A stretch of 64,000 bases of DNA. It comes from Fimbriimonas ginsengisoli (GTDB lineage: Bacteria > Armatimonadota > Fimbriimonadia > Fimbriimonadales > Fimbriimonadaceae). Under the pieces are notes generated by a model. It worked only from the letters and a program-made list of their open reading frames with translations. It did not search any database and was not told where the DNA came from. The translations under genes and the position numbers were made by a program. Where the stretch lies: positions 1-64,000 of the forward strand of contig JACOSL010000006.1 of NCBI GenBank assembly GCA_016179045.1, in the 5' to 3' direction. Within the stretch, counting starts at the first letter, position 1; each line of letters begins with the position of its first letter. This document shows, one piece after another, positions 9,464-14,034 of this stretch.

Positions 9464-10018
9464 ATGCGACTGTTTGTCGCGATCGAACTACCCGATGAGG
9501 TCAGAGAGGCTCTATCGGCTGTGCGGCGGCTGCTGGCCCCGACCATGGGAAGCGGGTGGAAGTGGGTCGAGCCCGAACGGTGCCACGTCACGCTCATCTT
9601 TCTGGGGGCATGCTCTGCCGACCAGCTCGCCTCTATTCGGCCCCCATTGCACGCCTGTGCGGACGCGACTCCATCCCCGAGGCTTGAGTGCGCTGGCTTG
9701 GGGTTCTTCCCGGCGCGGGGTTTGCCGCGCATTCTCTGGGTAGGGCTCGACGGCGATCTGGCGGGGCTGACTGCTCTGTCGGACCGCCTTCGCGGCGCGA
9801 TCGCGCCTCTGGCGCCCAGCGCCGATCTTAAACCCTTCCATCCGCATATCACGCTCGCCCGGGCGCGCAAGAAGTGCGGCTCATCGATTCGGCCGAGCCT
9901 GACCACGGAAGTCACGAGCGTGAGCTGGCAAGCCCAATTCATCAGCCTAATCGAGAGCCGAACGACCGGCCCCACCAGCCAGTACGTCAGGCTCGAACGA
10001 GCCCCTTTGCGCAGCTAG
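9464..10018 (+). CDS. thpR: RNA 2',3'-cyclic phosphodiesterase (2H family)
   Basis: A 184-residue member of the 2H phosphoesterase family (LigT/ThpR). The two HxT[L] catalytic tetrads are visible as RCHVTLIFLG (about residue 43) and FHPHITLAR (about residue 128). Family members hydrolyse 2',3'-cyclic phosphate ends of RNA. The start MRLFVAIELPDEVREAL is the normal N-terminus. The stop codon shares a CTAG with the stop of the convergent SPFH gene. Physiological substrate in this organism is unknown. Confidence 0.9.
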   Translation: MRLFVAIELPDEVREALSAVRRLLAPTMGSGWKWVEPERCHVTLIFLGACSADQLASIRPPLHACADATPSPRLECAGLGFFPARGLPRILWVGLDGDLAGLTALSDRLRGAIAPLAPSADLKPFHPHITLARARKKCGSSIRPSLTTEVTSVSWQAQFISLIESRTTGPTSQYVRLERAPLRS

Positions 10019-11370
10019 TCGGTCGATGGCGGCTTGGCGGGGATCCTGACTTGAGGCGGAGGCGTCACGATCGGCGGCAACGGCGCAGGAGTGGGCGCGG
10101 CCCTGGGTGCCACAGATGCAACCGCCTGCTCGCGTGGGCCCTTGCCGTCTTGCAGCACGCCCGTCACGAGCTGGGCGGCGAGGATCGTTTGTATGACCCC
10201 CGTAATCTGGTCGGTCGCTCCGCCCGCCGCGCCACGGCCGTCGCTGGCAATATTCACAAGCCTCGCCTGCGCCAGCGCGTTGGCGATCACCGGCGCGATT
10301 TCGGGAAGCAATTCAAGCTGACGTAGCGCTAAATAGGCGTTGCCCCCCTCCGCGATGGCTGCGTTCACCTCCCGGATGGCCTCCGCCTGGGCTGACGCCA
10401 CCGTGCGAATCCGCACCGCGTCCGCCTCGGCGGCGGCCTGCGCCTGGAGCTTGACCTTCTGAGCGTCGGCCAAGGCTTGAGCAATTTGGGTGGCCCTGAG
10501 TTCGGCCTCCCGAAGCGCCTGCAAAGCCTCTTGCTTCTTGGCCTCGGCCTCCGCGATAACGGCCGCGTTTTGGGCGCGCCGCTGCTCCAAGTCGCGCTGC
10601 TTGTCGTTGACCGCCTGCTCGGCGCCGAGTTGAGCTTCGCGGGCGCGCCGCTCCTGATCGGCGGTGACGATGTCCGCGTTGGCCTTGGCCTCGACCGCCG
10701 ATTGACGGCGTCGCGCCTCCGCCACTTCGCTTTGCACTTCCTTGATGTTCAGCGAGTTGAACACGAGCCCGAGGTCCTGCAGTTCGCGCGAGCACGCGCT
10801 TTTGATGATGATCGCGAGGCGGTCGTCCTCTTCGCCGCTCGCGGTCGCGAGCGGAGCGGGAGCATGGGCGAGAGCGGCCGCGTCCTCGGCAGCTTGGTTG
10901 AACGAGGCGCGAGAGTTGAACAGTTCGTCGTGATGGAGCAAGTTGATCGCGCGGCGTCCGGTAGAAGTAAGCAGATCGGTTAGCGTGGATGTCTGCTCTA
11001 GCCCTGGCTTGGCGAAGAACCGGTTGGCGGCGGTGCGAATCATCTCGTTGCTGTCGCCCACGCTTACGATCGCGCTCGCGAGCACGCGCACCTTGATCGG
11101 CCTCGGCTGCCCGGTGCGATCGACGTCGGCGGTCTGGTCGGCGATGTCGAGATCGATGTTGATCGCCTTAGAGGGCAGCGTCGCGCAGGTGGTGAGCAGC
11201 GGCGCTTCCCACGCCTTGCACGGCCCCTTATAGACGGCGACTCGGCCGCTCATCCAACTGACGATCCGAATCGATCCCGCGTCGACCGTCCGCAGCATGC
11301 GAGTGACGAGAAACGGGATCACGAAAACGACGACTACGGCAATGGTGATCCAAACAGGTGCGGTATCCAT
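10015..11370 (-). CDS. SPFH/band-7 domain (flotillin-like) membrane protein
   Basis: A 451-residue protein beginning with a single membrane segment (residues about 6-27), then an SPFH/band-7 domain (about 30-190), then a long Ala/Glu/Gln/Arg-rich coiled coil (about 215-335) and a proline-rich tail. This order is that of flotillins, scaffolds of membrane microdomains. An insertion rich in Ala with PLATASGEEDDRL interrupts the SPFH domain. The upstream gene on the same strand encodes an NfeD-like protein, the usual partner of flotillin-like proteins, 55 nt away. The ATG has a GGAAGGAA Shine-Dalgarno. Confidence 0.82.
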   Translation of the reverse strand: MDTAPVWITIAVVVVFVIPFLVTRMLRTVDAGSIRIVSWMSGRVAVYKGPCKAWEAPLLTTCATLPSKAINIDLDIADQTADVDRTGQPRPIKVRVLASAIVSVGDSNEMIRTAANRFFAKPGLEQTSTLTDLLTSTGRRAINLLHHDELFNSRASFNQAAEDAAALAHAPAPLATASGEEDDRLAIIIKSACSRELQDLGLVFNSLNIKEVQSEVAEARRRQSAVEAKANADIVTADQERRAREAQLGAEQAVNDKQRDLEQRRAQNAAVIAEAEAKKQEALQALREAELRATQIAQALADAQKVKLQAQAAAEADAVRIRTVASAQAEAIREVNAAIAEGGNAYLALRQLELLPEIAPVIANALAQARLVNIASDGRGAAGGATDQITGVIQTILAAQLVTGVLQDGKGPREQAVASVAPRAAPTPAPLPPIVTPPPQVRIPAKPPSTD

Positions 11371-11425: not shown

Positions 11426-12148
11426 CTACTCGCCCAACTCCTTGCTGACCGAGCACCGATTTCGCGCCGCATCGACCGAAGTGAGAATAACTCGGTCGCC
11501 TTTGCCCACGCGCACCCCGCGCTTGAGCTCGTCACTTTCGAGCGAGGCCAGCACCTGAACCTGCTGCCCGTCGAGGACGAGGGTGACGACCCCTTTCCCG
11601 GATCGGTCGAAGCCGGTCGATGCGGTCGCCTCGTGGCCGGGCGCGCCTTCCAGACCTTCGCTCGGGGCCCCGGCGAAGCGCATCGCAAATGAGAGCGCGG
11701 TGCGCACGATGAGCAGGTCGAAGATCAGCCCGCCCACGATCGCGGCGTAAATCAGCGGGCTGCCGACCACGGTGTGCTTAAGCAGCTTTCCAACGACCCC
11801 CATCCCAAAGGCGAGGCTGAAGATGTCCAGGGGCGAGATCGCCATCCAGGCGATCGATTTGGCCATCTCGAGCCCCCGCAAGGCGGCATGCCCAACCCCG
11901 TGGCCCGTTCCGTGACCATGGTGCACCGCCCCGTGGCCCTGCCCGACGGTATGGCCGTGATGGACCGCGCCGGGAGTCGCGACATGGGCGCCGACGTGCC
12001 CATGCAAATGGGACACTACAAGCCCGGGATGACTGCTGGAATCGATGCCGTGGCTGGCTCCGGCGTGCCCGCCATGCGCGTACACAAACCCCATCAGGCA
12101 CATAACGACGAGCCCAACCAGCCCAAACACGAGAAGCGACTCGAACAC
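11426..12148 (-). CDS. NfeD-like membrane protein with histidine-rich loop
   Basis: A 240-residue protein. It has a transmembrane segment at about 3-23, then a 60-residue loop (about 24-90) containing roughly 20 His and many Gly, then two more hydrophobic segments (about 95-150) and a C-terminal beta-rich region (about 175-235: GKGVVTLVLDGQQVQVLASL, KGDRVILTSVDAARNRCSV) that resembles the OB fold of NfeD proteins. NfeD partners flotillins in many bacteria, and the flotillin-like gene follows 55 nt downstream. The start is GTG with an AAGGTGG Shine-Dalgarno. The His-rich loop is not a usual NfeD feature and suggests metal binding. The NfeD assignment is tentative. Confidence 0.65.
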   Translation of the reverse strand: MFESLLVFGLVGLVVMCLMGFVYAHGGHAGASHGIDSSSHPGLVVSHLHGHVGAHVATPGAVHHGHTVGQGHGAVHHGHGTGHGVGHAALRGLEMAKSIAWMAISPLDIFSLAFGMGVVGKLLKHTVVGSPLIYAAIVGGLIFDLLIVRTALSFAMRFAGAPSEGLEGAPGHEATASTGFDRSGKGVVTLVLDGQQVQVLASLESDELKRGVRVGKGDRVILTSVDAARNRCSVSKELGE

Positions 12149-12210
12149 CTATGCCACCTTACGCCCACACGCGTGGAGGCGATGCACGCCTGTGAGCTAC
12201 ATTAACACAC

Positions 12211-14034
12211 ATGGCCCCTGCCCTTGCCGTTCTCGTCCTCGCATTCTCCCAGCTCGCCCCCAAGGCCGCGCTCGAGCGCTATCGCTACGCGATCGCGAGC
12301 GGGTCGGAAGATCGTATCCACTCGATCTTCGCCAAACCCGAGGGCTCCGCCTATCTGTTCGATATGGCCAAGCGCCTGGGCGGGTGGAACAAGCTCAAGG
12401 TCGCGGTGATCCCCGCCCCGCCCGGATGGGATGGGCCGGGGAGCTACTGGGCGGTCATACACGCCGCCCAGCAGATCGAGAGCGACCACGACGTCGTGTA
12501 CCGGATGGTTCAGGGCGACGCGGGGCTCGTGCTTGGAGAGGAAATCGCGGAAGACGCCTCTTGCCTGGACGCGAAGATCACCGACGGGCGCGCCACCGCC
12601 CACATCGTGCCCGCAACCCACACGGTGGACGTGCTCGCCAACCTCCTAATCGAAGGCGCCGGCAAGCGCGCCCTGCTTCTGCGCCTGAACGACACCTACG
12701 TGCTCAGGTCGGCGGGTGGGCACGGACCCGTCATCACCGCCGACGACGACATCCCCAGCCCCCACCGGGGCGACGTGGTGCGCGCGGGAGGCCTGCTCAT
12801 TCCTTGGGTCGATTCCGTGCCCAGCGAGCTCAACCTACTCTACAGGGGGGTGATTCCCGCGGGGCTCGAGGACCGGCTCGACGAGAAGGCGTGCTACCTT
12901 ACCGCCTACTGGTTCCCCAGCCTCGGACGCCTGCCATTCCCGTTTTCGGCCCATATCATCGGCCCCGCGAACTGGATTTTGCGCTCGGAGGGCGTGCAGA
13001 CCGTGCTCGGCCACGGTGGTCCGTTCCCGGCGGCGGACAATGAGCAAGACACCGCCTATCGTTGCGAGATCCCGATCTCGTTTCCTAAGATCGTGTGCGG
13101 GCCCTTCAAGCTAGCCGGCGAGCGCACGGTCGGGGGCAAGACGTTTCGCTCCTATCAACTCGACCCGGTGCAACCGGAGCGCGCGCAGCACGACCTCGAC
13201 GAGATGGCCTCCGCGATGGCCGACTTCGAGCCCATGTTGGGTCCGTTTCCTTTCTCCGGCTACGAGTGCTTCGACGGCGCCGAATACTACGGCATCGAGA
13301 GCTACAGTTACACGGTGCTGCGGCGCGACGTGACCACCCGCTTCGTCTCCCACGAGATGGGCCACACCTACTTTGGGGGATTGACGCCCTGCGCGTACGT
13401 GCACGACACCTGGAACGAGGGCCTGACAACTTACATCGACAGTGTGGTCCACTTGAGGAACAAGGACCATTCGCTGGAAGCGGGCCTTCGCACGATCAAG
13501 ACGCCGATCCCGCTCAACCGCATGAACATCGCCTGGGCGAACGGCAGCGCCACCTACTACCGAGGGGCGTATGCGATGAACATGCTCGCCGACGAGATCG
13601 GCCTCGATAAGCAACTCAGCGCCCTCAGACGGATCGTGGCCGACCGAAGAGGCCGTGACACGCGTTGGGACGACCTGCGGCCTTATTTCGAGCAGGAAGC
13701 CGGCCGGACGCTCGACTGGTTCTGGCGGCAGTGGATCGACGGGGCGCAGTTTCCCGCTCTCAAGGTCACGGACGTCGAGCCGATCAATCGCGAGGGGCAC
13801 TACCAAACGCGTGTGACCGTCGCCCAGACCGGCACCGCCCAGCCGTACCGGATGAAATTCAAGATATGGGTGCGCGATGGCGGCCTGCGAGTCGAAAAGC
13901 TAGTGGAAACCCACGCGCCGATCGAGACGTTCACCCTCGAAGGGGACTTCGCGCCGCGCGAGGCGGGCCTGGACGTGTTTCCATTCACCCTCGCCGATTC
14001 GTGCGCGCCAGTGTCGGTGCCGCGCGCGAATTAG
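12211..14034 (+). CDS. M1-like (gluzincin) zinc metallopeptidase, exported
   Basis: A 607-residue protein with an N-terminal hydrophobic stretch (about 2-16) that looks like a signal peptide. The zinc site is HEMGH at about 381-385 with a downstream NEG whose Glu is about residue 403, 17 residues after the last His; classical M1 aminopeptidases have 18. There is no obvious GAMEN exopeptidase motif; the equivalent region reads ECFDGAEYYGIESY. The C-terminal third contains beta-rich segments. It is therefore a divergent M1 relative and may not be an aminopeptidase. The gene has no clear Shine-Dalgarno and is followed by a strong terminator. Confidence 0.8.
   Translation: MAPALAVLVLAFSQLAPKAALERYRYAIASGSEDRIHSIFAKPEGSAYLFDMAKRLGGWNKLKVAVIPAPPGWDGPGSYWAVIHAAQQIESDHDVVYRMVQGDAGLVLGEEIAEDASCLDAKITDGRATAHIVPATHTVDVLANLLIEGAGKRALLLRLNDTYVLRSAGGHGPVITADDDIPSPHRGDVVRAGGLLIPWVDSVPSELNLLYRGVIPAGLEDRLDEKACYLTAYWFPSLGRLPFPFSAHIIGPANWILRSEGVQTVLGHGGPFPAADNEQDTAYRCEIPISFPKIVCGPFKLAGERTVGGKTFRSYQLDPVQPERAQHDLDEMASAMADFEPMLGPFPFSGYECFDGAEYYGIESYSYTVLRRDVTTRFVSHEMGHTYFGGLTPCAYVHDTWNEGLTTYIDSVVHLRNKDHSLEAGLRTIKTPIPLNRMNIAWANGSATYYRGAYAMNMLADEIGLDKQLSALRRIVADRRGRDTRWDDLRPYFEQEAGRTLDWFWRQWIDGAQFPALKVTDVEPINREGHYQTRVTVAQTGTAQPYRMKFKIWVRDGGLRVEKLVETHAPIETFTLEGDFAPREAGLDVFPFTLADSCAPVSVPRAN

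Follow-up and report, generated by a model that had tools for sequence, protein, structure and literature searches.

The gene pair in Table 1 very probably encodes an NfeD2 protein and its flotillin, with a selected histidine-rich loop in the NfeD2-type protein, hereafter the partner. It lies in a window that comprises the whole 64,000-nucleotide stretch of Fimbriimonas ginsengisoli DNA analyzed here. The loop is a trait of this partner subfamily and is kept by composition rather than by exact sequence. It looks like a real working part of the partner, with metal or protons as its candidate ligand.

Table 1. Features of the gene pair and its upstream region (positions are those of the window)
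Feature	Position	Strand	Basis
Flotillin-like SPFH gene, 451 aa, whose product has a membrane helix at the N terminus, then an SPFH-type domain and a long coiled coil	10015..11370	−	predicted fold, profile
NfeD2-type partner gene, 240 aa, GTG start 12148, stop ends 11426	11426..12148	−	ORF and predicted fold
OB-fold domain, residues 173–235	11444..11632	−	model; matches YuaF, 1510-C, PH0471 C-terminal domains
Membrane segment 3, residues 130–159, K/R-rich end	11672..11761	−	model helix and hydropathy
Membrane segment 2, residues 106–123	11780..11833	−	model helix
His/Gly-rich disordered loop, residues 25–87, 17 His, no Cys	11888..12076	−	composition and model
Membrane segment 1, residues 2–24	12077..12145	−	model helix and hydropathy
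Ribosome-binding-site-like AAGGTGG, few bp 5' of GTG start	12154..12160	−	sequence reading
Degenerate ECF-promoter candidate at −38 of start	12158..12186	−	not significant

The initial annotation had described the ORF at 11426–12148 as an NfeD-like partner of a flotillin-like protein. Both the reading frame and the description are borne out, the latter by the predicted folds of the two proteins. The structure prediction for the partner, made from a 48-sequence alignment (mean pLDDT 77), has helices at residues 2–24, 88–102, 106–123, and 130–159. Residues 27–87 are unstructured in the model, with pLDDT below 50 for residues 27–55, and the OB domain has a pLDDT of ~90 or more across most of its length. 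Three membrane segments followed by a C-terminal OB domain is the NfeD2-type layout, as in YuaF and YqiJ. With the whole partner as query, the closest solved structures found by Foldseek are YbbJ of the QmcA–YbbJ complex (E 8.7e-5) and YuaF. The OB domain was aligned by VIA-align with 1510-C (3wwv; Z 10.2, rmsd 2.1, 64 residues aligned), 3cp0 (Z 9.4), YuaF (2k14; Z 8.7), and 2exd (Z 8.1), and MTH693 and PH0471 were also matched. IF1-like OB proteins are interspersed among these matches at Z 8–8.7, and the OB fold alone is therefore not exclusive to NfeD. The window partner has no match in Pfam or NCBIfam; the Pfam NfeD model (PF01957) matches 3 of 48 partners (best E 0.049) and YqiJ_N one of 48 (E 0.052), all weakly. 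NfeD2 proteins are reported, in the excerpts of the source considered here, to be weakly conserved (PMC2636767).

The flotillin-like gene lies downstream of the partner gene and runs in the same direction. A model of its product, based on 37 sequences, has the human flotillin complex as its best Foldseek match (E 3e-11), followed by prohibitin, stomatin, and HflK/C, and a profile of the protein retrieves flotillin-1 by sequence (E 6e-4). The NCBIfam FloT model gives 43 bits, far under its cut-off of 700, and Pfam Band_7 has no match to the protein, nor at the locus in a genome-wide search. Because Band_7 is without a match, we name the neighbor flotillin-like by fold and not a Band_7 member by sequence. 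The order of partner and then flotillin is that of YuaF–YuaG/FloT in Bacillus subtilis and YqiJ–YqiK in Escherichia coli, the two pairs for which excerpts of PMC2636767 describe an NfeD2–SPFH2 arrangement. Divergent from the pair, 62 bp upstream of the partner gene, is a peptidase M1-like gene (12211–14034, plus strand) whose product has an HEMGH motif and, at 27.2 bits, falls just short of the Pfam threshold of 27.7.

The loop had been credited with about 20 His in 60 residues. The His-richness stands, with the count corrected to 17 in 63 residues (the protein as a whole has 19), and its position between the first and second membrane segments agrees with the model helices and the disorder at residues 27–55. 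In 46 greedy ORFs of the window, a set that excludes the partner's own ORF because a longer overlapping frame displaces it, His makes up 2.45% of residues, and the densest 63-residue stretch has 9 His. The binomial chance of at least 17 His in 63 residues at 2.4% is ~1e-13, a figure that tests composition only, as neighboring residues in low-complexity sequence are not drawn independently. Chance is ruled out by this figure together with retention of the loop in relatives, and a one-genome oddity by the His-rich loops found across those relatives. A DNA tandem repeat is likewise ruled out; the only array is a short one (11604–11628) outside the loop.

Within the phylum, the partner is present in 47 of 291 genomes, and in the window's family the partner and the SPFH protein co-occur in the identical 19 of 85 genomes. 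The two genes are adjacent in 44 of the 46 genomes with usable genes. One of the two non-adjacent cases is a contig end (G131), and in the other (G137; L010, L084), a nine-contig genome, the partner is on contig C1 and the flotillin on C6, with a CDF exporter ~7 kb from the partner. The loop is thus not missing from orthologues, since it is present next to the SPFH gene in relatives. Both Deinococcus plasmid copies and 46 of the 48 Armatimonadota partners, which come from 46 genomes, have at least five His in it, and 41 of these 50 partners have at least eight; one genome cut at contig ends (G113; L029, L068) and duplicates of the same genes (L030, L031–L047, L069–L089) were left out of the loop counts. 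The 50 loops are 23–102 residues long with a median of 22% His, and their pooled composition is 24% Gly, 21% His, 14% Ala, 9% Ser, 4% Asp and Glu, 4.5% Lys and Arg, and no Cys. Adjacent His are depleted, with 60 pairs observed versus 132.5 ± 8.6 in within-loop shuffles. Residue-by-residue conservation is low; positions H40 and H51 are His in 46 and 43 of 48 rows, respectively, counts to which the alignment may itself contribute by pulling His together. The two low-His exceptions are second copies of tandem pairs in one genus (G008 and G009), with Arg/Lys-Gly-rich loops of 25–30 residues that hold 0 or 1 His and 8 or 10 Lys and Arg. In the tandem loci L050 (1975–3086) and L052 (2448–3535), a first copy with a His and Asp loop is followed by a second with an Arg/Lys-Gly loop and then by the SPFH gene. 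Another locus (L053, genome G211) has one His-rich partner followed by two tandem SPFH genes.

A recurring dyad upstream of the pair was first noticed by eye in the loci of 28 relatives and then counted on 48. Its first half, G[CT]AAC[CT], occurs in 29 of the 48 upstream regions, where shuffling gives 6.5 ± 2.3, and the dyad GYAACY-N-GT occurs in 21, where shuffling gives 1.6 and never more than 6. The reverse complement turns up only as often as chance predicts (7 versus 7.5), so the motif is strand-specific. This dyad layout is that of ECF sigma promoters. With a stricter second half the motif is matched at 18 of 48 loci in 13 of 30 genera, mostly 30–50 bp before the start; by family, it is present at 8 of 10 loci in f10/f11, 6 of 18 in f1, and 1 of 13 in f13. 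Six of the 20 loci beyond those read by eye match (L050, L051, L052, L053, L054, and L063), L053 at the unlikely distance of −151. The start codons of relatives were set by rule, and three begin upstream of the likely start (L003, L005, and L019; L027 is uncertain). The promoter counts are conservative because such early starts pushed true sites out of the scored stretch.

In the f11 genomes, the motif leads to a candidate regulator. A genome-wide search for TGCAACYTT-N10-12-CGTGTC returned 11 sites in four of the six genomes, against one for the reversed control. Four sites precede the pair and three an ECF sigma gene; of the other four, one is at a contig end and three belong to other genes. 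The three ECF-gene sites, each in a different genome, lie 30–33 bp before a gene whose product matches Sigma70_r2 and r4_2; its best NCBIfam models are RpoE and then sigma70-ECF, with SigW among others, and of these only sigma70-ECF passes its cut-off. In genome G026, the regions upstream of the pair and of the ECF gene both show a variant in which GCAACT is followed by GGTC at a distance of 15 bp. Because the motif is common to the pair and the ECF gene, the pair appears to belong to a small autoregulated ECF regulon in the f11 relatives, and from these sequence patterns the pair is probably under ECF envelope-stress control in the f10/f11 relatives. This ECF-type promoter recalls B. subtilis yuaFGI, which is under sigma-W (PMC2636767, PMC3498285); sigma-W is reported in the excerpts considered here to control both yuaFGI and yqeZ-floA (PMC3498285, PMC8144471). 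In the loci with ECF sigma genes behind the pair's motif (L099, L101, and L103), the next ORF is anti-sigma-like, with a weak zf-HC2 match in one of the three tested.

In a comparison that covered 20 of the 48 loci, the region upstream of the window's pair did not outscore shuffled sequence (14 of 60 shuffles were as high). A search of 11 family-f1 genomes for the f11 ECF protein gave nothing at E ≤ 1e-25. A genome-wide f1 regulon was sought with GYAACC-N16-18-GTAATA, which matches in 10 of 18 genomes with a similar reversed control; we therefore claim no regulon for f1, where the motif is seen by conservation only. In the genome that the window comes from, one ECF gene (L164), found among 15 loci inspected of 19 Sigma70_r4_2 matches, has GTAACC-N16-CGTCGAA at −38, likely an autoregulated promoter of the same general type, and the pair's own upstream region does not match it. 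One further copy of the motif (L104) precedes a 106-residue zinc-ribbon-like protein and a 290-residue protein; the latter reads by eye as SPFH/prohibitin-like, an identity that we do not claim, with only FliL under cut-off in Pfam and nothing in three further comparisons. On a Deinococcus plasmid (L092, 5570–9128), the 3.5 kb downstream of the pair contain msrQ and msrP as well as genes for an ECF sigma factor and a zf-HC2 protein, surroundings that suggest an oxidative envelope-stress setting.

Three membrane segments put the loop and the OB domain on the same side of the membrane. The 19 residues after segment 3 contain on average 1.8 Lys/Arg and 0.8 Asp/Glu, with four columns at 44–58% Lys/Arg, compared with a mean of 0.65 Lys/Arg in the stretch that joins segment 2 to segment 3. 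By this enrichment the OB domain and the loop would be placed inside, and the loop is most likely in the cytosol. QmcA–YbbJ, the E. coli SPFH1–NfeD1 cage (8z5g) that gave the top Foldseek match over the whole partner length, is a cytosolic cage with an NfeD partner, and the YbbK–YbbJ cage, made of 26 heterodimers, is reported to extend into the cytoplasm (PMC13086221). If the pair were built like YbbK–YbbJ, the ring would carry ~440 loop His, an extrapolated number. Unlike the window pair, the SPFH1 protein of QmcA–YbbJ is of the stomatin type, and its partner is short (a 148-residue chain) with no His-rich insert mentioned in the excerpts considered. FloA–NfeD of Staphylococcus aureus is also a flotillin with an operon partner, in which the OB domain is reported to contact the flotillin coiled coil and a stress role is described; it differs in its FloA kind of flotillin, and the excerpted text does not mention a His-rich loop (PMC11222466).

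Our best explanation of the whole, offered tentatively as falling just short of probable, is a stress-type flotillin cage in which the loop would act by multivalent imidazole chemistry with divalent metals. The flotillin-like SPFH protein and the partner would form a flotillin-type membrane cage, with the partner's OB domain facing the SPFH protein and the disordered His/Gly loop in the cytosol at the base of the cage. An ECF sigma factor would switch on the pair and itself in at least some relatives, as does sigma-W of B. subtilis. Dozens of loop copies round the ring would bring hundreds of His to the membrane as multivalent imidazoles. These could bind Zn, Ni, Co, or Cu that is set free or taken up during membrane stress, and binding would buffer the ions, cross-link the loops so that the platform tightens, or both. 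Judged by its composition, the loop is likely to bind divalent metal in the test tube. That metal is its physiological ligand is possible yet somewhat doubtful; the metal reading plausibly fits the chemistry of the loop, and no finding here connects the operon itself to metal. A His/Gly-rich disordered cytosolic loop beside membrane helices is found in CDF/ZnT and ZIP transporters. Unlike these, the window partner is not a transporter and has an OB domain and an SPFH partner.

A proton, rather than a metal, could be what the loop responds to. The loop would be uncharged at cytosolic pH and strongly positive on a proton leak, flotillins would cluster in a pH-dependent manner, and metal binding would be incidental. 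We consider this switch or condensate unlikely, and equally regard protons or condensation as a rather unlikely role for the loop. Few acidic residues, the lack of Cys, and the Gly/His/Ala/Ser make-up all fit the idea, as does the envelope-stress-type promoter in relatives, and histidine-rich squid beak proteins provide a model of phase separation in the excerpts considered (PMC6884462). The proton reading stays alive because the permanently positive Arg/Lys-Gly loops of second copies and the acidic loop of a Paracoccus partner argue that charge matters. Set against it, the pH response is conjectural, and it is among metal proteins that His-rich loops of the HGH type are most familiar. A bolder combination, which we regard as improbable, would be a stress-induced cage whose ring of His loops, some 440 imidazoles if there are 26 subunits as in YbbK–YbbJ, works as a single switch, set off by protons or metal, that condenses the platform or opens it, with the Arg/Gly tandem paralogues tuning it by fixed charge.

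The loop could instead be a passive spacer, with selection keeping a hydrophilic, flexible, low-complexity linker and His a functionless habit of the lineage. The low position-wise conservation and the spread of loop lengths are as expected from a spacer, and the same place is acidic in the Paracoccus partner and Gly-rich in another Deinococcus partner. Together with the Arg/Lys second copies, the Paracoccus loop indicates that His is not required here in general. However, 48 of the 50 loops, drawn from 29 Armatimonadota genera and two Deinococcus plasmids, keep His at 10–35%, and His–His neighbors are avoided. His-richness also tracks the SPFH subfamily and not the host genus, because in Deinococcus the densest 40-residue stretch contains 12 and 7 His in the two partners that belong to this subfamily and 2 in that of D. 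actinosclerus, with a different flotillin; a host-genus property is thereby ruled out. With these observations, a spacer is quite improbable. The loop had also been called unusual for NfeD proteins, which holds against a small set of four YqiJ-type partners outside the subfamily. In these four (E. coli YqiJ and the Variovorax, Paracoccus, and D. actinosclerus partners), the densest 40-residue stretches contain 5, 3, 4, and 2 His. The 5 of E. coli YqiJ fall in the same loop; YqiJ thus differs from the window partner in having no such His-rich loop, and it gives no significant sequence match to the partner profile.

The initial annotation went further and proposed a metal-storing or metal-sensing membrane microdomain, which in its full form would be regulated by and serve Ni, Zn, or Cu homeostasis. 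The His density of the loop speaks for this idea, as does PacL1 of Mycobacterium tuberculosis, whose membrane-anchored disordered cytosolic segment with His is reported to bind zinc and to serve as a scaffold for the transporter in metal-efflux platforms (PMC9374683). However, the excerpted account of PacL1 describes a short Asp/His motif, a gene encoded with that of a P-type ATPase, and foci that form without flotillin (PMC9374683). At least two CDF exporter genes are present in 7 of 19 pair-bearing genomes versus 5 of 66 other genomes of the family (p 0.004), against a near-universal background (82 of 85 family genomes have a CDF exporter). This excess is confounded with genome size, because six of these seven genomes are the largest of the pair-bearing set, each above 4.5 Mb; only 1 of the 13 smaller ones has multiple CDF genes. 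CobW/HypB/UreG-type proteins (E ≤ 1e-10) show the opposite direction, in 1 of 19 pair-bearing versus 17 of 66 other family genomes (p 0.06). Across 15 loci taken with 3-kb flanks, the neighborhoods have only the pair in common, and no recurrent metal gene. A conserved third operon gene of metal function was considered and rejected, the other clusters being antisense or shadow frames or neighbors shared by three or four close relatives. No metalloregulator box was recognized by eye in the upstream regions. With no recurrent metal neighbor, CobW/HypB/UreG proteins sparse in pair-bearing genomes, and a readable regulator of the ECF-sigma envelope-stress type, a dedicated metal microdomain is very unlikely. 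The loops give weak matches to the exporter DmeF in 3 of 48 cases (best E 0.0035), and their profile matches ZnT1 (E 0.017) and ZnT7 (E 0.11); these matches reflect composition.

In the open-licence literature, which set the scope of the search to the exclusion of subscription papers, we found no description of a His-rich loop in NfeD, flotillin, or SPFH partners and nothing on an Armatimonadetes flotillin. A partner subfamily with one extreme chemistry, spaced His and no Cys, in a free-running loop could give a handle on what NfeD proteins do for flotillins, through a defined ligand class, a location within the cage, and a stress regulon that can be predicted. If the preferred reading of a stress-type cage with a His-rich ring is true, flotillin platforms would be linked to metal or proton stress, and ECF-sigma control of flotillins is apparently common to Bacillus and some Armatimonadota. 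The slot beside a flotillin gene can also be filled in another way. On a Pararhizobium plasmid (L168, 673–3087), a bacteriorhodopsin gene directly precedes the flotillin gene, where other plasmids carry the OB-fold partner, an arrangement to compare with the flotillin-associated rhodopsin of PMC10308929.
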